A stretch of DNA of 21,004 nt from a virus: the IMG/VR virus record IMGVR_UViG_3300013132_000313, positions 1 to 21,004 of that record; one strand, given 5' to 3'. Of this stretch, positions 9,118 to 21,004 are shown piece after piece. Made by a program: the position numbers and the translations under genes. The notes below the pieces were generated by a model, which saw nothing but the letters and a program-made list of their open reading frames with translations, was not told the origin of the DNA and made no database searches. Position 1 is the stretch's first letter; the number at the start of each line of letters is the position of its first letter.

Positions 9118-9306
9118 TTAATTTTTTGGTTGGTTATCTTCTATTATTCTATTTATTATGTACTTTCTAATGTAGGTTGGAATAGTGTTAAATTCATTAT
9201 AATTCATTCTAATGAATTTTGCCAAAAAATAATATTCTTCAATTAAATTAATCCTATACTCAAAAGAAAGGCCGAAAAAATTCAACCCCAAAGGTAATAT
9301 TAACAT
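9118..9306 (-). CDS. Small ORF overlapping the hub assembly gene; possible +1 frameshift extension
   Basis: This 62-codon frame overlaps the last 47 bases of the hub assembly gene in the +1 frame. Its coding part looks real from FEYRINLIEEYYFLAKF onward, a compact helical segment ending in KYIINRIIEDNQ. Two expression routes are possible. It may start at the ATG at 9306, which has an AGGAG at 9316-9320 (9-base spacing), unusual in this window where starts generally lack such sites. Alternatively it may be fused to the upstream protein by a +1 shift at TTT-TGA-G (9265-9259), giving ...VEFFRPFF joined to EYRINLIEEYY. The frame is closed by a TAA immediately before the ATG at 9306, so any shift must occur within the overlap. 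In T4, genes 26 and 51 are adjacent, and in siphophages and P2 the tail chaperone genes before the tape measure use frameshifting. Confidence 0.55.
   Translation of the reverse strand: MLILPLGLNFFGLSFEYRINLIEEYYFLAKFIRMNYNEFNTIPTYIRKYIINRIIEDNQPKN
9259..9265 (-). other. Candidate +1 frameshift site TTT-TGA-G
   Basis: In minus-strand sense the hub assembly gene ends TTC TTT TGA followed by G. A Phe-tRNA slipping +1 on TTT-T would bypass the UGA and continue as GAG TAT AGG in the overlapping ORF, much as CUU-UGA works in bacterial prfB. GGG-G and CCT-T, also shift-prone, occur 12-30 bases upstream. No stimulatory Shine-Dalgarno at the prfB distance and no clear downstream pseudoknot are visible. 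This is a prediction. Confidence 0.3.
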
Positions 9307-10027
9307 TTACCATTTCTCCTGATGGGGCTTGAACTTGTCTTGTTAAATCTAATGATGGAACATTTTCTAACAAGAAATTTTTTATGTATTTTGAATCCAT
9401 TATGGGTAATTGGTCAACAAAAGAAGTTATTCTGTTTCTATCCGTTGAGCCATCTAATTCCACTATTTCTTTATTTAATCTCCATGAAACTAAAGGAGCA
9501 ACTCTTCCTTGTGGATAATTTTCCGCAAGTTTATTTAATTCTTCTGTTTCAAAATAAGATAATGGTCTAATTTTAACCGTTGATTCTGTTCTTGGTAATT
9601 TTACGTCAAAAGTACCATCATGATTTGGACTTACTTTTGGTCTTTTAATATTTAATTCATCTAATAATATTCTAGCCTCAAAAGTTTTATTTGTTTTTGG
9701 GTCGGTAAGATTAATAACGTATTCAGGTCCAAATGAAGAGTTTCTTAAAAAGATTAATAACGCTTCAATATCGGCAGTTAATAATTCGTTAATTTTAAGT
9801 TCCGGTTCGTATAATTTATTTCTTATTAAGTTGGTAATTAAATAGTCTCCTTTTTTTTGAACCGCGTCAATTATAATATTCTCATCATTTGCGGTTAAAT
9901 ATCCTATTTTTACCGTTTTTTGTTTATTTTTATAAAACACTCCTCCTGTTGGTAGTGTCACTACATCATGTGGCAAGTTAAAATTTGAAGTTGCCGCTTG
10001 TATTACATTTGATTCTAAGTTTTCCAT
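9260..10027 (-). CDS. Baseplate hub assembly protein, T4 gp26/gp51-like
   Basis: This 255-residue protein carries the hallmarks of the T4-type baseplate hub assembly family. An N-terminal LPTGGVFYKNKQKTVKIGYL leads into LTANDENIII, followed by a helical segment with LLTADIEALLIFLRNSSFG and EYVINLTDPKTNK. The C-terminus contains a helical bundle and ends VNITFGVEFFRPFF. In T4, gp26 and gp51 are needed to assemble the central hub; related proteins in other T4-like phages run about 200-260 residues, which fits. It lies directly upstream of the tape measure, the usual chaperone position. A strong terminator ends the preceding tube transcript at about 10083-10112. The TATTTATA box just beyond it (10072-10079) may therefore drive this gene, with a leader of about 40 bases. 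The 3' end is overlapped by a small ORF and may support a +1 frameshift. Confidence 0.72.
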   Translation of the reverse strand: MENLESNVIQAATSNFNLPHDVVTLPTGGVFYKNKQKTVKIGYLTANDENIIIDAVQKKGDYLITNLIRNKLYEPELKINELLTADIEALLIFLRNSSFGPEYVINLTDPKTNKTFEARILLDELNIKRPKVSPNHDGTFDVKLPRTESTVKIRPLSYFETEELNKLAENYPQGRVAPLVSWRLNKEIVELDGSTDRNRITSFVDQLPIMDSKYIKNFLLENVPSLDLTRQVQAPSGEMVNVNITFGVEFFRPFF

Positions 10028-10133: not shown

Positions 10134-10622
10134 TTAATATACTAAAATACAACGGTCCATACGTATGTTAGTTGTGATAGTTGCTATTTTGTCACTATCA
10201 TAACCAAGTGAACCTCCATCGTAACCTGTTAAAAACGCTCCTTCAAGAATCCATTTTTCAACAACAACCCCTGTAGGGTCTAACATTTCAAGGTCTACGT
10301 TTTTCTTATAACCGGCCGCATAACCCATACGTCCTGTTACAGATTCTGCACATAAACGAATCCATTCCATAACCGCTTGAGACGCAGAAGGACCTATTGG
10401 GTCTCTAAAAGTAACAGAAATCTCTTGCCATTCAAATCGTCCTGCAACATAAGTTGAAGTATTCAAAAATGGTATCGGTGTTGAAGTTATTTTTAAAGAT
10501 GGTCTTTTAGTAGTTTCAACAAACCATTCGTTGATTCCTAAGTCGCTAGGAAATCTTAATATGAATCGATTATTTCTTTTCGGTTCATACGGTACGGGCA
10601 TTTTCATTAATAAATCAGCCAT
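10134..10622 (-). CDS. Tail tube protein, T4 gp19-like
   Basis: This 162-residue protein is almost exactly the length of T4 gp19 (163). It opens with PVPYEPKRNNRFILRFPSDL, the typical N-terminal strand. It contains the central KRPSLKITSTPIPFLNTSTY and WQEISVTFRDPIGPSASQAV segments, and ends with a strand rich in Thr/Ile (KIATITTNIRMDRCILVY). It forms the stacked hexameric rings of the inner tail tube that the sheath contracts around. A terminator hairpin follows the stop and a TATTTATA box lies 34 bases before the ATG, so it is probably an abundant monocistronic late message. In T4 this gene directly follows the sheath gene; here a HAD-family gene separates them. Confidence 0.9.
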   Translation of the reverse strand: MADLLMKMPVPYEPKRNNRFILRFPSDLGINEWFVETTKRPSLKITSTPIPFLNTSTYVAGRFEWQEISVTFRDPIGPSASQAVMEWIRLCAESVTGRMGYAAGYKKNVDLEMLDPTGVVVEKWILEGAFLTGYDGGSLGYDSDKIATITTNIRMDRCILVY

Positions 10623-10690: not shown

Positions 10691-11530
10691 TTATTTATCT
10701 TTAAATATACTTTTCTTTCCTCCTTTTGTTGAATAAAGTTTAAAATCTAAACCTTCTCCACCTTCTAATTCTTTACCAAATTCTTTATGATACGCTTTAA
10801 GGTTTTTTAAATCATCGTCAGAAACTCCCAATTTAGGCACAAAATTATTTGACACCATATTTTTTAAGAAAGCCTTTTTACCAATAATGTTTGACATTTC
10901 TTTAATATAACCAATAAACTCTCTTAATGCTTCATTTTTTAATAATTCTGGTTTAGCCGCAGACCCTTGTCCATATGATACCGGATAAAATTTACACATA
11001 TCCAAATACTCTCTAATAATATCCATATTTCTTGGTGTTTCTTCCCCAACTAAATCTCTAAACTTATTTAAATTTTTAACACATTCTTTAGCATCTAAAC
11101 CCATATGATTTGAGATTAATAAATTATAACAAGCCTCTTTTAAAACATAAGGGGTATGTCCTCTTGCTGTTATAATCGCAAATATAGAACCACCGTTTAA
11201 CGCCTCAACAAAGTCGTCCCAAGCAGGACCTTTTTTGGCTACCATTGAGTCTACTATGAAATTCTTGTCTCCCTCAACTGAAAAATATTTAAATGTGTTA
11301 GGAGCAAAACTTTTAATAATATGTCCATCATATTCAAAATCTTCGACACCAATTTTATCTCTATAATGAGCAAAATCTTCTGTTGTCATTCCAACTTCAT
11401 TTCCTTTATCATCTAATAAAATTAATTTTGTTGGCATTTCTAAAATATTATCATCCCAATCAAAGGCATAATATTTCATATCTGGCGTTCCAGTCTCGTC
11501 AATTCCTTCTTTTAATTTATATCTTCTCAT
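10691..11530 (-). CDS. HAD-superfamily hydrolase-like protein
   Basis: This is a 279-residue protein. Residues 20-28 hold YYAFDWDDN, a HAD motif I with the paired aspartates D24 and D26 expected for a phosphoryl-aspartate mechanism. FAIITARGHTP near 117-126 fits motif II (Thr). A lysine in AAKPELLK near 191 and acidic residues in GVSDDDLK near 250 could serve as motifs III and IV, but these are less certain. Substrate unknown; families with this layout include nucleotidases and polynucleotide phosphatases. The placement between sheath and tube genes is odd for an enzyme. The N-terminus MRRYKLKE has an L-x-E that could in principle be a prohead-protease site, but this is weak. It lies 57 bases after the sheath gene beyond a hairpin, so expression may be by partial read-through. 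No clear TATTTAT box precedes it. Confidence 0.7.
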   Translation of the reverse strand: MRRYKLKEGIDETGTPDMKYYAFDWDDNILEMPTKLILLDDKGNEVGMTTEDFAHYRDKIGVEDFEYDGHIIKSFAPNTFKYFSVEGDKNFIVDSMVAKKGPAWDDFVEALNGGSIFAIITARGHTPYVLKEACYNLLISNHMGLDAKECVKNLNKFRDLVGEETPRNMDIIREYLDMCKFYPVSYGQGSAAKPELLKNEALREFIGYIKEMSNIIGKKAFLKNMVSNNFVPKLGVSDDDLKNLKAYHKEFGKELEGGEGLDFKLYSTKGGKKSIFKDK

Positions 11531-11587: not shown

Positions 11588-14500
11588 TTAGATGTTTTCA
11601 AAAGACGCCCCTGTCGGTGTAATATAGAATGTAATATCTATAAACTCTAACGCTCTTGTCGGTTTGATATAAATCTTACCTGTTAATTGATTTCTATCTA
11701 AGTCTGCAGGGTCTGAAGATACTGTTACACGGAAATCGTATAAACCTCTATCTCTTCTAATTGCGTCTAAGATTGGATTAACCGCGTCTAAGAAATCTTG
11801 TCTTACTTTATCGTCATTTTGTTCAAATAACAATCTAACAGATACTGCCGAAATTAATTTACGAGCTTGTAATAACAATCTTCTTACATTGATTCTGTCA
11901 AGAGCAGATTCTCTAATTTGTAGAGTTTTGTTACCCCAAATTACTGTTCCCACATCTGAGAATGTCGCGATTGGGTTGATTCTACCTTTATATAGAGTAT
12001 CTCTATCTTCTTGTGTTAATTTCTTTCTAGCTTTAATTGCGTTTACAATACCTCTTGTATAACCTGCCGCCGCAAACCAAGGGAACGCGATGTTATCAGT
12101 TAATGCTAAGTTTCTTGTAACTTCCGCAGTTGCTGGAATGTAAATTTGTGTATTATTAACCGCATCTCTTGTTAATACCCAAGGATAATAAGTTGCGGTA
12201 TAATTAGAATCAATTGCCGCTTCTTCAAGATTATCAACCGCCTCTTGTGGATAGATTAAATATGTTGAATCTCCCGGAGTTGGGACAAATAGGTTGTAGT
12301 CAGGTGTTGTTGTAATATACAACGAATCAGCTCTATCAAACTCAATCATTTCAACTGCATTTCCAACAAGGTCGGAATTGTTTACATAATCAATACCAGG
12401 GGTTACAAATAAGTTAATATTTACCGCCTCAGGGTTTGAGAATGTTCTAATACCTAAAAGGTATGCGTAATAATCTGTGTTTGCCCAATCAACAGTATTA
12501 TCACCAACCGATATTTGTTTAAATGCCCCCCATCCTGTTGCGGTTGGGTATTTTATTGAGGTACAAGCTCCTTTTAAATATCCGCTTCTACCTAATACAA
12601 ATCTATCTGAGTTAGTTCTTGATTCTCTGTAGATATCCCATCCGTCAAAACCTCCCGCACATACTAATGAGAATTTACGCGCAAATAATCTATAATATGG
12701 ATTAGTCTCATCTTGAGGGTCCGAAGTAAATTCGCCAGAACCAACAAAATACGCTGGTGTACCACTAGTTGTAAAACCATTAGAAATTGTAATTCCCGAT
12801 GCGTTTTTATCCATGTGGAAACCTCTTGTTTTATAGAACCATTCGTCTCCAGTTACATCAGTACAAACGTCCAATGGAAGTTGTTTACCTTTGTATTGGT
12901 AGAAATCAGTGTCAAAACCAATCGTATCTGAGATACCTAAATAAGTTCTTCTAACATTATCACCACTAGTTCTAATCGCGTCGTCCGCACCTGTTGATAA
13001 ACCAAATGGAGGGTTGTAAACTACTTCACCTGGGAAATCATATTTTGTTTTGTATATAGGGAATGGCGGTCTAAATCCTCCACTTCCGCCGTATTCACGG
13101 AAACTATACCCTTGGAATCCGCAAGGTAATGCGTCAATCGGAGCGTCTTCGTTCATTTCCAACATAACGTATTTTGAATTTAATTGGAACTCTCCGTCAG
13201 CGGTTCCTATTTTTTTAGCCACGAAATTATTTAATCCCGGATTCATACTACAATTAGTGAAACTTTCTAAAACAGAAGGTGCTGAGTCAGAATCAAAGAA
13301 ATCTCTAACAAGAACATCAAACGTTCCGTTTCCAAATGATATGTTTTGAATTGAAATTTTAACTTCTGTATTCGCATCATTACCATCAGCAATTGTTATA
13401 AACTTAAATAAGTTATAAACTTTACTACCTCTTAATTCAGATACTAACCATGGTGAACTTGGTGATTGGTATTTTTCTAAATACCAAGCAATTGATGAAG
13501 GGTCAGAACCTTGTCTTGCGTTAGGTAACGCTAAAATATCACAATTTAAACCTCTGATATATCCTTTTCTCCAAGCCCAAGTTAATAAATTTTGGAATCT
13601 TTCTTCAACAAATAAAGGAACCGTTTGTCTTGGTTTTCCAAAGTTAGATTGGCCGAAAACTTTTGTAAGATATCTTGGGTCAGAGTTTTGGAATGAAGTT
13701 TCAAAGAAGAAATTTTCGCCGTCTTTATTTGTTACATTTAATCCAAATACTGAAAAAGGATTTTTTGTAACACCTGAATAAGTTCCAGAACAATCCATAG
13801 TTACATCGTTCAAGTTTTGAACTTCGTAAACTGCTCCGTCATCAGAAGAATATGTTGCTAAACCTCTTGAACGTAATGTCGCAATTACTAAATCATCATA
13901 ATCCAAATACGCAGTGCCTGAATAATAATATATTCTACCATTTAAATTACCAGTATAACATTTAACAGGTTGTACTGTTGTTGTGGTTGTTGTAGAAATT
14001 GGGGTTGGGGTAACACAAGGGTTTGTAGTTGTAGTTGTTGTTGAAGTTGAAGTTGTCGTGGTTGAATTTGGTACTAGTGTAACACCTGATACGTATGTGT
14101 AAAATGAAGACCCGGTATACATACCAGAACCTACATTATCAAATAATGCGTAATACCAAGGGTCGTTATTAGGGTCTGAATAATCTACGTTATTTGAACT
14201 TACAGTATCTAAACTAAATACGTTAGTTGATGCCGTATAAACAGTATTTAAAACATCGTAAGTATCTCCCGAAATAACCCCATAATAATAAATGTTAACA
14301 CCTTCTTCGTCATCAGGAAAATCGGCGCTAATAACTTCAAATACTTGACTATTCAGGTTTTGACCTATAGACGAAACCGAACCATTAAATTTTTCATATG
14401 GTAAATTTAATTTTGCTAAAATTGCGTCAGGTAATCCTGTAACATCGTATTGAATATTGTCGGCATTATCTGTACAAGCCGTAAATGGAACTGTAAAGTC

Positions 14501-14923
14501 TTCAACCCAATACTCATCACAATTAAATTCGCAATTAACAACGCTTCCAGTATAGCACCAAAAATTAACTGTTGAAGGGTCAACATTTGCTTTAGTAGAT
14601 ATTGTCCAAGAAGGACCCGCATCATAACCTGAAAGACCTAAAATTCTTGTAACAAATAATTGGTTTGATTGTTGTAAATAAGCTTTAGCAATATACGCTG
14701 ATTCATATTTAGGTATTTGTGTATTAACGAATTTTTCAGGTGAAGTCTCACCAAACACTGTGGTGAATTCATCAAAATTTCTTATAAAAATTGGTTCGAA
14801 AGCGGGACCTTTTTGTGTCTCACCAACGATACCTAAAGTCGTAACACCAACACTTTGTGCTACGAAACTCAAATCTACTTCTGAAGTATAAACCCCAGGT
14901 GATACGAATACTTTGTTTGCCAT
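11588..14923 (-). CDS. Tail sheath protein, T4 gp18-like, with large Thr-rich insertion
   Basis: This is an 1111-residue protein. The N-terminus (VFVSPGVYTSEVDLSFVAQS, then GIVGETQKGPAFEP) and C-terminus (ESALDRINVRRLLLQARKLI, LFEQNDDKVRQDFLDAVNPI, YIKPTRALEFIDITF) are classic contractile-sheath elements, including the terminal domain that links neighbouring subunits. Core segments near 440-600 (PLFVEERFQNLLTWAWRKGY; GTFDVLVRDFFDS) also fit. T4 gp18 is 659 residues. The excess lies mainly between about 105 and 420, where a Cys-containing beta-rich insert carries a Thr/Ser tract at about 286-318 with NPCVTPTP in its middle. Such an insert would project from the outer tail surface. A TATTTATT box lies 33 bases upstream and a hairpin terminator follows the stop, so it is probably a strongly expressed separate message. 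Confidence 0.9.
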   Translation of the reverse strand: MANKVFVSPGVYTSEVDLSFVAQSVGVTTLGIVGETQKGPAFEPIFIRNFDEFTTVFGETSPEKFVNTQIPKYESAYIAKAYLQQSNQLFVTRILGLSGYDAGPSWTISTKANVDPSTVNFWCYTGSVVNCEFNCDEYWVEDFTVPFTACTDNADNIQYDVTGLPDAILAKLNLPYEKFNGSVSSIGQNLNSQVFEVISADFPDDEEGVNIYYYGVISGDTYDVLNTVYTASTNVFSLDTVSSNNVDYSDPNNDPWYYALFDNVGSGMYTGSSFYTYVSGVTLVPNSTTTTSTSTTTTTTNPCVTPTPISTTTTTTVQPVKCYTGNLNGRIYYYSGTAYLDYDDLVIATLRSRGLATYSSDDGAVYEVQNLNDVTMDCSGTYSGVTKNPFSVFGLNVTNKDGENFFFETSFQNSDPRYLTKVFGQSNFGKPRQTVPLFVEERFQNLLTWAWRKGYIRGLNCDILALPNARQGSDPSSIAWYLEKYQSPSSPWLVSELRGSKVYNLFKFITIADGNDANTEVKISIQNISFGNGTFDVLVRDFFDSDSAPSVLESFTNCSMNPGLNNFVAKKIGTADGEFQLNSKYVMLEMNEDAPIDALPCGFQGYSFREYGGSGGFRPPFPIYKTKYDFPGEVVYNPPFGLSTGADDAIRTSGDNVRRTYLGISDTIGFDTDFYQYKGKQLPLDVCTDVTGDEWFYKTRGFHMDKNASGITISNGFTTSGTPAYFVGSGEFTSDPQDETNPYYRLFARKFSLVCAGGFDGWDIYRESRTNSDRFVLGRSGYLKGACTSIKYPTATGWGAFKQISVGDNTVDWANTDYYAYLLGIRTFSNPEAVNINLFVTPGIDYVNNSDLVGNAVEMIEFDRADSLYITTTPDYNLFVPTPGDSTYLIYPQEAVDNLEEAAIDSNYTATYYPWVLTRDAVNNTQIYIPATAEVTRNLALTDNIAFPWFAAAGYTRGIVNAIKARKKLTQEDRDTLYKGRINPIATFSDVGTVIWGNKTLQIRESALDRINVRRLLLQARKLISAVSVRLLFEQNDDKVRQDFLDAVNPILDAIRRDRGLYDFRVTVSSDPADLDRNQLTGKIYIKPTRALEFIDITFYITPTGASFENI

Positions 14924-19201: not shown

Positions 19202-20368
19202 TTATATATATTTTTTTACCAAATCCTCAAAAGAATTTTTAGGTGAACTATAGGACTTTGTTTCGGGACTATATTTTGGTAAATTCATGTATTGTTTTAA
19301 TTCGTTCATAAGGTTATTATTAGTAATAATATTTTCTCCTACATCAGGTGCGTTACCAATAGTTATTTTAACTATCTTACCTTTATCCCATGAAAAATTC
19401 CATCTTATAAAAGGCTGAATTTTGGTGTCTATTTGTATCTTTTTTTTGGCAATATCATCCGAAAACATTTTATTAAATTTTATTTCATAGATAGCCAAAA
19501 ACGATTCTGAACCCGGAACCGCTTTACCGTCATAGGGTAAAGTATAGTTCGGGTTATTACTTAAAGGTATTTGCCATGTGTTATTTTTTGAACATCTATT
19601 TGGGACCACACTATCGATTTTAGCTCTTGTTTTATTACCTGAGATTCCGGCACAATTATAACTACCCTGTATAATATATTTAGGGTCAAATCTTGGTTCA
19701 AATCTTTCAGTTGTCGTGGTTTTTACATAATTAAATTTTAAATTTACAGACACAAATTGACCCGGCAAAAATTTTGGGTCTCTACGAGTATCATTATCCC
19801 CAAATCCTCCCGTGTTAATGACATAGGCGGAAGATTTTTTTGGGATTTCATTATTAACAGTAATTCCTTGTTGTGATAAAAACGCAATTAAATTATTTAA
19901 GAATATTTGAGCTCTTTGTGTTGCCAAATTTTTATTTGATGTATAACCAGAATCTGTTGGAGTTGTTTTTGCCGCAGTTTTTCTATCATTTTCCATATCA
20001 TAACCCGTTGGATTTCCTCCCCAAGTGTTACTAGCACCACCAATAACATCAATAAAAGTTAGTTGAATGTTTTTTTCCTCCAACATTTTTTTAGTTTCGG
20101 GGTTGGTGTTGATAAGATTCATTATTCCGTCTGTAAAAGTTTTAAAGGTGTCTGGACTAACAGCATTTGAACCCGTAGGAAAATTAACATTTTGAGTATA
20201 AGGACCGATAGGAATACCTTCTTTAGTTACTTCGGTTATTTTAACTCCCGTATCGGTTTTTTCTTTAGTTACAGTTTTTGTAACCTGTTCGGAAATTAAT
20301 TTTCCTGTTTCGTAATTAAGTAAAAATTTAATTCTATTTAATTCTTCAAGTATATTAATGTTGTTCAT
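19202..20368 (-). CDS. OmpA-like protein with N-terminal propeptide-like tag
   Basis: This is a 388-residue protein. Residues 1-27 form an amphipathic helix with LEELNRIKFLLNYETGKLIS, ending I25-S26-E27 before Q28, a match to the [LI]-x-E cleavage rule of T4-type prohead proteases. Residues about 100-215 resemble an OmpA domain: LTFIDVIGGASNTWGG, then NLATQRAQIFLNNLIAFLSQ (cf. N..LS..RA..V...L), GGFGDND and a closing strand GQFVSVNLKF. The match is weaker than for the OmpA domain in the giant baseplate protein. Residues 225-388 are unfamiliar and carry two cysteines (SYNCAG, NRCSKN). There is no secretion signal. It is divergent from the SOD gene, with a TATTTATA box 13 bases before the ATG. 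It may be a virion protein; the function is unknown. Confidence 0.55.
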   Translation of the reverse strand: MNNINILEELNRIKFLLNYETGKLISEQVTKTVTKEKTDTGVKITEVTKEGIPIGPYTQNVNFPTGSNAVSPDTFKTFTDGIMNLINTNPETKKMLEEKNIQLTFIDVIGGASNTWGGNPTGYDMENDRKTAAKTTPTDSGYTSNKNLATQRAQIFLNNLIAFLSQQGITVNNEIPKKSSAYVINTGGFGDNDTRRDPKFLPGQFVSVNLKFNYVKTTTTERFEPRFDPKYIIQGSYNCAGISGNKTRAKIDSVVPNRCSKNNTWQIPLSNNPNYTLPYDGKAVPGSESFLAIYEIKFNKMFSDDIAKKKIQIDTKIQPFIRWNFSWDKGKIVKITIGNAPDVGENIITNNNLMNELKQYMNLPKYSPETKSYSSPKNSFEDLVKKYI

Positions 20369-20381
20369 AGATATTTTTTAT

Positions 20382-20389
20382 TATAAATA
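20382..20389 (-). promoter_or_regulatory. TATTTATA box before OmpA-like gene
   Basis: Left half of a 16-bp perfect palindrome (20382-20397). In minus sense it reads TATTTATAATAAAA and lies 13 bases before the ATG at 20368. Confidence 0.4.
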
Positions 20390-20397
20390 TATTTATA
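20390..20397 (+). promoter_or_regulatory. TATTTATA box before SOD gene
   Basis: Right half of the 16-bp palindrome. Plus-sense TATTTATA lies 21 bases before the GTG at 20419. The two boxes are back to back and point outward, so the pair would fire both genes together. Confidence 0.4.
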
Positions 20398-20418
20398 TGT
20401 AATAAACGCGATTTGTTT

Positions 20419-21004
20419 GTGAAAAACCAATTTGAAAATAAATCAAAATTACTTTTAGAAAGTATTAAAAGAATAGAAAGCGGTAATTTTCTATTAACCG
20501 AAATGAAAAAAATCGGTATTGAAAAGTTACCTTACTCATATTCGTCTTTGAATAAATTTATCGATTCTAAGACGATGGATGTTCATTATAACAAACATTA
20601 TAAGGGTTATGTTAAAAAGTTGAATAACGCTCTTTCCAAAAAAGAATATGGTGATATTGAACTCGAAGAAATTATTAAATCTATTAGTAAGTTTAATAAA
20701 ACAATACGAAATAATGCTGGTGGAGCTTTTAATCACGCATTATTTTGGAAAATGTTATCACCAAAAAAACAAGAACCTAAAAGAGAGTTATTAAAAAAAA
20801 TAAAAAAAGATTTTGGAACATACTCAAACTTTAAAAATAAATTTGAGGAGTTGGCAAAAGGTTCTTTTGGTAGTGGATGGATTTGGTTAGTTGTGACCAA
20901 ACAAAACAAATTAAAATTAATGACAACCCCAAATCAAGATAACCCACTGATGAATGTTATTGAAGGTGGCGGGTTTCCTATTTTAGGTTTAGATTTATGG
21001 GAAC
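20419..21004 (+). CDS. Mn-type superoxide dismutase with N-terminal extension, 3' end outside window
   Basis: 195 residues are visible and the frame runs off the right edge. It is an Fe/Mn-SOD: LPYSYSSLNKFIDSKTM, ligand H56 (DVHYNKHYKGYV), ligand H106 in RNNAGGAFNHALFW, GSFGSGWIWLV, and D192 in LDLWE. The fourth ligand, His after WE, falls at the cut codon, which begins with C. NNAGG and TPNQDNPL favour Mn (or dual-metal) over Fe forms. It disproportionates superoxide. The frame opens without an ATG before residue 29. Starting at GTG 20419 gives a 28-residue extension (LLLESIKRIESGNFLLTE) ending L-T-E. Starting at ATG 20503 gives a normal-length enzyme. Cleavage after E28 would yield the same mature protein. 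A TATTTATA box lies 21 bases before the GTG. Phage-encoded SODs are rare. Confidence 0.88.
   Translation, partial: MKNQFENKSKLLLESIKRIESGNFLLTEMKKIGIEKLPYSYSSLNKFIDSKTMDVHYNKHYKGYVKKLNNALSKKEYGDIELEEIIKSISKFNKTIRNNAGGAFNHALFWKMLSPKKQEPKRELLKKIKKDFGTYSNFKNKFEELAKGSFGSGWIWLVVTKQNKLKLMTTPNQDNPLMNVIEGGGFPILGLDLWE

Follow-up and report, generated by a model that had tools for sequence, protein, structure and literature searches.

The superoxide dismutase (SOD) gene at the right end of the window, that is, of the whole 21,004-base virus fragment that we analysed, appears to encode the enzyme that comes first in a cargo polyprotein. The leader of this polyprotein would carry it to the prohead interior, where the prohead protease would cut it. 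We give cleavage and packaging a probability of around 80%, whereas delivery into the host and an antioxidant role at infection are less certain. The chain would consist of a helical leader followed by a MnSOD-type domain and, in most cases, a PD-(D/E)XK nuclease-like domain. As the capsid-targeting sequences do in T4 internal proteins, the leader would bind the prohead core during assembly. A gp21-like S77 prohead protease would then cut behind three [LI]-x-E motifs, one where leader and SOD meet and two downstream of the SOD, so that a dismutase of normal length and the nuclease-like domain come free within the head. Both would probably enter the host with the DNA, where superoxide would be scavenged by the SOD as infection begins, ahead of phage gene expression. 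The SOD is probably packed in the particle because its chain has cut sites like those of capsid maturation. The coordinates are given in Table 1; a re-reading of the sequence confirmed the positions and residues that the first-pass annotation had given for the leaders of the SOD and of the OmpA-like protein. The protease, the major capsid protein (MCP) and the C-terminus of the SOD are all absent from the fragment and were seen in relatives instead.

Table 1. Features of the window and predicted cut sites
Feature	Position	Strand	Remarks
Virus fragment (window)	21,004 bases		T4-like tail genes, and SOD/OmpA-like gene pair at right end
Baseplate gene	9260-10027		T4-like tail
Tube gene	10134-10622		T4-like tail
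Sheath-like large protein	11588-14923	-	Read as sheath from position and conservation
OmpA-like protein	19202-20368	-	388 aa; divergent from the SOD gene; one homologue, in L005
OmpA-like leader	20288-20368	-	27 residues, MNNINILEELNRIKFLLNYETGKLISE then Q; E27, ends LISE
I-S-E site of OmpA-like leader	20288-20296	-	Predicted cut after E27
SOD gene	20419-21004	+	Divergent from the OmpA-like gene; cut off
SOD leader, propeptide-like	20419-20502	+	GTG start, 28 residues, ends LLTE
SOD leader/core junction			(GTG)KNQFENKSKLLLESIKRIESGNFLLTE, then MKKIGIEKLPY; E28/M29
L-x-E site (LTE) at leader/SOD junction	20494-20502	+	Predicted cut after 20502
Fe/Mn SOD domain, incomplete	20503-21004	+	Pfam PF00081 and PF02777; runs off fragment end

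Regarding the leader, a scan of IMG/VR gave 80 close viral relatives of the SOD, and two further scans with distant members raised the set to 238 loci, which correspond to 103 distinct leaders, some contigs being recurrent. In all 103 leaders an [ILM]-x-E motif lies exactly at the SOD core (the P3 residue is I in 67, L in 35 and M in one), although [LI]xE is short and common in proteins, and most of these relatives are one phage group and not independent. The motif was found at the SOD junction in none of 80 cellular relatives (GTDB genomes, mostly Bacteroidota). When the leaders were anchored at the cut, the Glu at position -1 was the sole invariant column (51 of 51, entropy 0, against 1.0-3.0 bits in the others), and in the full SOD alignment only M1 and E30 were invariant within the leader. 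The viral leaders are 23-30 aa long where measured, mostly 30.

Judging from its substitutions, the leader evolves as coding sequence and hence is translated, because the pairwise dN/dS in the SOD frame was 0.13-0.25, as opposed to about 1 (0.87-1.17) in the 90 bases upstream; the shifted frames gave 0.55-0.82 and 1.8-4.0. Furthermore, the Met following the Glu is replaced by Ala in four relatives (L010, L012, L013 and L020), therefore translation does not start there in those phages. Because of these substitutions and the leader dN/dS we rejected the ATG at 20503 as the SOD start. A GTG start was also found in the relative L005, whose leader has 27 residues. Homologues that lacked the extension, or conservation upstream of the ATG, were looked for as evidence against the first reading of a propeptide-like extension, and none was found among the 103 cases; the dN/dS values and the 103 leaders argue instead for a conserved, translated, propeptide-like leader with the gp21 motif. 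A tblastn search of phages with the short leader gave no matches.

The SOD itself has both domains of the Fe/Mn family and, by eye, Mn-type residues (GGAFNH, NQD). Its metal ligands H58, H108, D194 and H198 (L007 numbering) are invariant in the relatives, from which the last His, beyond position 21004, was read. The complete relatives are mostly about 510 aa long and have two more sites after the SOD, typically KLNE/S and, ten residues on, VLSE/GKSERC (the slash marks the predicted cut). In L007 the three predicted cut residues are E30, E238 and E248. The second and third LxE were found in 60/60 and 59/60 sequences of the first relative set and, by position, in 104 and 99 of the 108 long sequences of a larger and looser set, where 95 sequences have both post-SOD sites, 9 the first alone (several of them with a displaced later LxE) and 4 the second alone. 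The PDB profile match of the SOD spans L007 residues 39-229, between E30 and E238, which agrees with the earlier claim that cutting behind this Glu would yield a dismutase of normal length. The AlphaFold2 model of L007, moderate overall (mean pLDDT 77.8, pTM 0.55), drops in confidence at the sites (residues 22-41 and about 231-250) and also in parts of the SOD.

The leader is predicted to be helical in the AlphaFold2 model, as would suit a helix that is never cut, serving for oligomerisation or partner binding, with a structural Glu and the SOD as an ordinary metabolic gene in the infected cell. Cleavage is a prediction from sequence, and the SODs of Vibrio phage 2.275.O and of the PA5oct group sit among non-structural genes, which also fits. 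Nevertheless, only the hydrophobic-x-Glu is constant in an otherwise variable leader, the same motif is seen again downstream of the SOD and within the MCP, and the model confidence is lowest at the site, so we regard an uncut helix as improbable.

The chain with its nuclease-like passenger was missed by the first-pass annotation because the fragment ends at 21004. Modelled alone, this C-terminal domain reached a pLDDT of 90.8, and it has invariant E...D...QxK residues across the relatives. Its best PDB matches in Foldseek were the Hjc resolvase 4tkd and I-Ssp6803I 2ost, at an E of about 5e-3 and with probabilities of 0.97-0.99, therefore a PD-(D/E)XK nuclease-like fold is likely but not certain. 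Both the core fold and the E...D...(E/Q)xK residues were recognized, the activity being predicted only.

A gp21-like protease, which the first reading had proposed to look for, was found in the relatives: PF03420 (Peptidase_S77) was detected in four out of 19 related records, the records being possibly fragmentary. The S77 protease and a Gp23-type MCP with a like site occur in the same genome in relatives G001, G010, G011 and G016. All five related MCPs have LINE/A, at what we take to be the position of the T4 gp23 processing site. In the cultured Flavobacterium phage immuto we saw a protease, the sequence IVSE/A at the position of the MCP and a single leader-like protein. In G001 (a 322 kb record) the protease (117086-117811) is within the head operon, beside the Gp23-type MCP, and from sequence and gene order the neighbours are read as terminase, portal and scaffold. 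A relative of the nuclease-like domain stands alone there between protease and scaffold (118104-119060), with a short leader-like start (MKITISEGQYKILSE). Its location, together with the cutting of T4 gp22 into fragments (PMC9026906), would be in line with a polyprotein that is part of the scaffold or of head assembly, with SOD and nuclease-like domains that serve assembly and for the most part are fragmented or expelled by the time DNA is packaged. We think this unlikely, as the SOD ligands and the nuclease residues are invariant and the sites spare the folded domains, to judge from the span of the PDB match and the troughs of AlphaFold2 confidence.

The cargo polyprotein can be compared with T4, where gp21 cuts at L/I-X-E and the capsid-targeting sequences are removed there (PMC9026906). 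T4 IPI-IPIII and Alt also have an N-terminal leader ending [LI]-x-E, with unrelated bodies behind similar leaders, and the T4 route is matched in the SOD-phage relatives by the S77 protease and by a Gp23 MCP whose site is of that kind. However, the leader of the T4 internal proteins has 10-19 residues versus mostly 30 (23-30 aa) in the SOD phages, therefore we file the SOD leader as a variant working like a capsid-targeting sequence and not as a T4 internal protein. The SOD phages also differ in having a metabolic enzyme as passenger, several enzymes per chain with sites between them, and a leader that can be internal.

As to what happens after packaging, the invariant junction Glu (103/103) also fits a SOD that is cut and packaged but acts in the virion alone, in genome protection or metal storage, and is never delivered. 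The T4 internal proteins and Alt, which are the model of the route, are ejected (PMC9026906), and a SOD combined with a nuclease-like domain would make sense inside a cell; neither point is a test, and we consider a virion-only SOD possible, but rather doubtful. If the cargo polyprotein is true, these phages carry a ready-made antioxidant enzyme in the particle, therefore dealing with reactive oxygen may be important from the very onset of infection. Cargo polyproteins cut in this way would also extend the T4 internal-protein idea, and the proteome that uncultured phages inject could then be read from their sequences by the rule of leaders ending [LI]-x-E. A virus-encoded Cu-Zn SOD has been reported in the particle of PBCV-1; it is of another SOD family and another virus than the Fe/Mn SOD described here, and the likeness is that of a virion SOD. 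The giant phages SPN3US and phiKZ are alike in that many head proteins are cut after Glu by a gp21-related protease, but they are a different phage group, and no SOD is noted among the cleaved head proteins in the excerpts of PMC10052503 and PMC9026906. In the open-licence literature we found no report of a SOD with prohead processing. An equivalent full-length fusion (50% identity) is A0A6J5L953, 501 aa, which is annotated as SOD only ('superoxide dismutase [uncultured Caudovirales phage]'), a name that gives neither the leader nor the fused domain.

The composition of the chain varies among the relatives. L258, L259 and L273 have one more domain besides the nuclease-like one. In L285 and L333 the SOD is joined straight to what is the last domain in L258 (52-54% identity, 317 aa), and in L026 and L057 the chain stops soon after the SOD. 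Moreover, seven loci (L281, L285, L286, L308, L322, L326 and L333) have an extra domain, some 125 aa long, fused ahead of the leader. It has an HExxH motif in the five copies examined, its Pfam match is weak only (DUF6055, E = 0.007), and it also occurs as a separate gene (G001:66915-67304 and L186:2107-2472). The leader of the fused forms is internal and still ends in hydrophobic-x-Glu ahead of the SOD. We rejected as a cut site the MYE with which the fused HExxH domain ends, as the free-standing protein naturally ends in ...TMYE; the junction may be a fusion relic, therefore it was left out of the site counts.

Entry into the host along with the DNA is predicted for the polyvalent proteins of phages and conjugative elements (Iyer et al. 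2017, PMC5512222). The SOD chains share with them disparate enzyme domains in one chain (at least two in the relatives) that are swapped between relatives, and HExxH domains. However, zincin-like metallopeptidases were proposed for the processing of polyvalent proteins in the abstract of that paper, as opposed to the prohead protease predicted here at [LI]-x-E, and superoxide is not mentioned in its text. From the sequences, we read the SOD polyprotein as a variation on two known themes, the internal proteins of T4 and the 'polyvalent' proteins of phages. We also lean, with some reserve, towards a prohead protease that would work as polyprotein processor in a family of large phages, with modular head cargo (HExxH, SOD and PD-(D/E)XK domains, swapped) behind one removable, possibly internal leader cut at [LI]-x-E, and many further proteins tagged by a few recurring leader types.

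The OmpA-like protein probably takes the same prohead route as the SOD, but this is less certain. Its 27-residue leader ending LISE, proposed by the first-pass annotation, is present, and the homologue in L005 (28% identical) keeps ISE/Q at residue 27 and is likewise divergent and near the SOD, with one small gene between. Scans with both proteins gave no further relatives, therefore the support for this leader comes from two sequences. The pattern LE.[LI].RI, which was said to be shared by the two leaders, does occur in both of them (LEELNRI, LESIKRI). It is kept neither in the L005 proteins nor in SOD leaders generally, therefore we read it as coincidence and rejected it as a family feature. 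Regarding the body of the protein, whose OmpA likeness is a proposal of the first-pass annotation, the NCBIfam match to PdsO (E = 0.1) is far below its cut-off, and Pfam, PHROGs and PDB sequence searches gave no match. The leader of the OmpA-like protein is similar to the leaders of an unrelated family that includes G001:238169, which end Y[IL]xE/Q or similar; the likeness is suggestive but no proof. G001:238169-238861 (L097:18169-18861) and nine homologues have the leader I..EI.RY..IN.YI[TN]E/Q and then a long proline-rich stretch.

A second leader type, RLTESDL..(I/V)VKR, was found on 13 protein groups with unrelated bodies. GH19-like, peptidoglycan-binding and WYL-domain proteins are seen behind leaders of this sort. 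It occurs as MKKxIRLTESDLxRIVKRxIxE in L086-L102 of G001 (at 28683, 36500, 37247, 39107, 39492, 39811, 40077 and 316370) and also in L162-L175, ending in hydrophobic-x-Glu in all copies read. A DNA pattern for this leader gave 14 more viral contigs, not all independent because L162/L168 and L166/L174 share N-termini; the frames read all reach [IM]xE, which the pattern did not demand. In G001 as a whole, [LI]xE is enriched at residues 3-25 (178/7,810 vs 421/32,981 at residues 60-200, p = 7e-13), with crude ORF calls and a composition that may differ near N-termini. An alignment-wide scan for N-terminal sites gave few families only, partly because most records are without the head region. As a general tag, the motif EExxRIKxLL had 13 matches in 1,344 proteins, a small number. 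EEINRIKxLL-like motifs were also seen at C-termini, after LTE or LNE (G001:96493-97215, G001:306427-307839 and L005:106-933); they are few copies, possibly C-terminal counterparts of the leaders.

Regarding SODs elsewhere, several cellular relatives have what look like export signals at the N-terminus, and the nearest ones (L335, L337, L338, L347 and others) often have RRxFI-type N-termini like Tat export signals, therefore the leader of the phage SOD may stand where these proteins have an export signal. The SOD of Vibrio phage 2.275.O (L159:3013-3582) has no N-terminal LxE leader, and its C-terminal tail LDESVNIRHLINFISK resembles the post-SOD linker of the polyprotein family. The SOD of Pseudomonas phage Callisto (L161:3007-3555, PA5oct group) starts MNDSIKKYISIAE, then AASS, and this start could be a short T4-like targeting sequence.

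The phage family is large and made up of uncultured, T4-like phages. Its hosts are probably Bacteroidota, because of the cellular SOD relatives and of MCP matches including Flavobacterium and Rhodothermus phages, even if a Microcystis phage comes first among the MCP matches listed. Annotated phages, searched at the DNA and the protein level, gave no match for the sheath/tube region or the OmpA-like protein. Between the sheath-like and tube genes lies a conserved protein (10691-11530, minus strand) with a HAD-like FDWDDN motif; NCBIfam, Pfam and PHROGs searches gave no match for it, and homologues are present in most related records. The sheath-like protein has internal low-complexity Thr/Ser-rich stretches (TTTTSTSTTTTTT).
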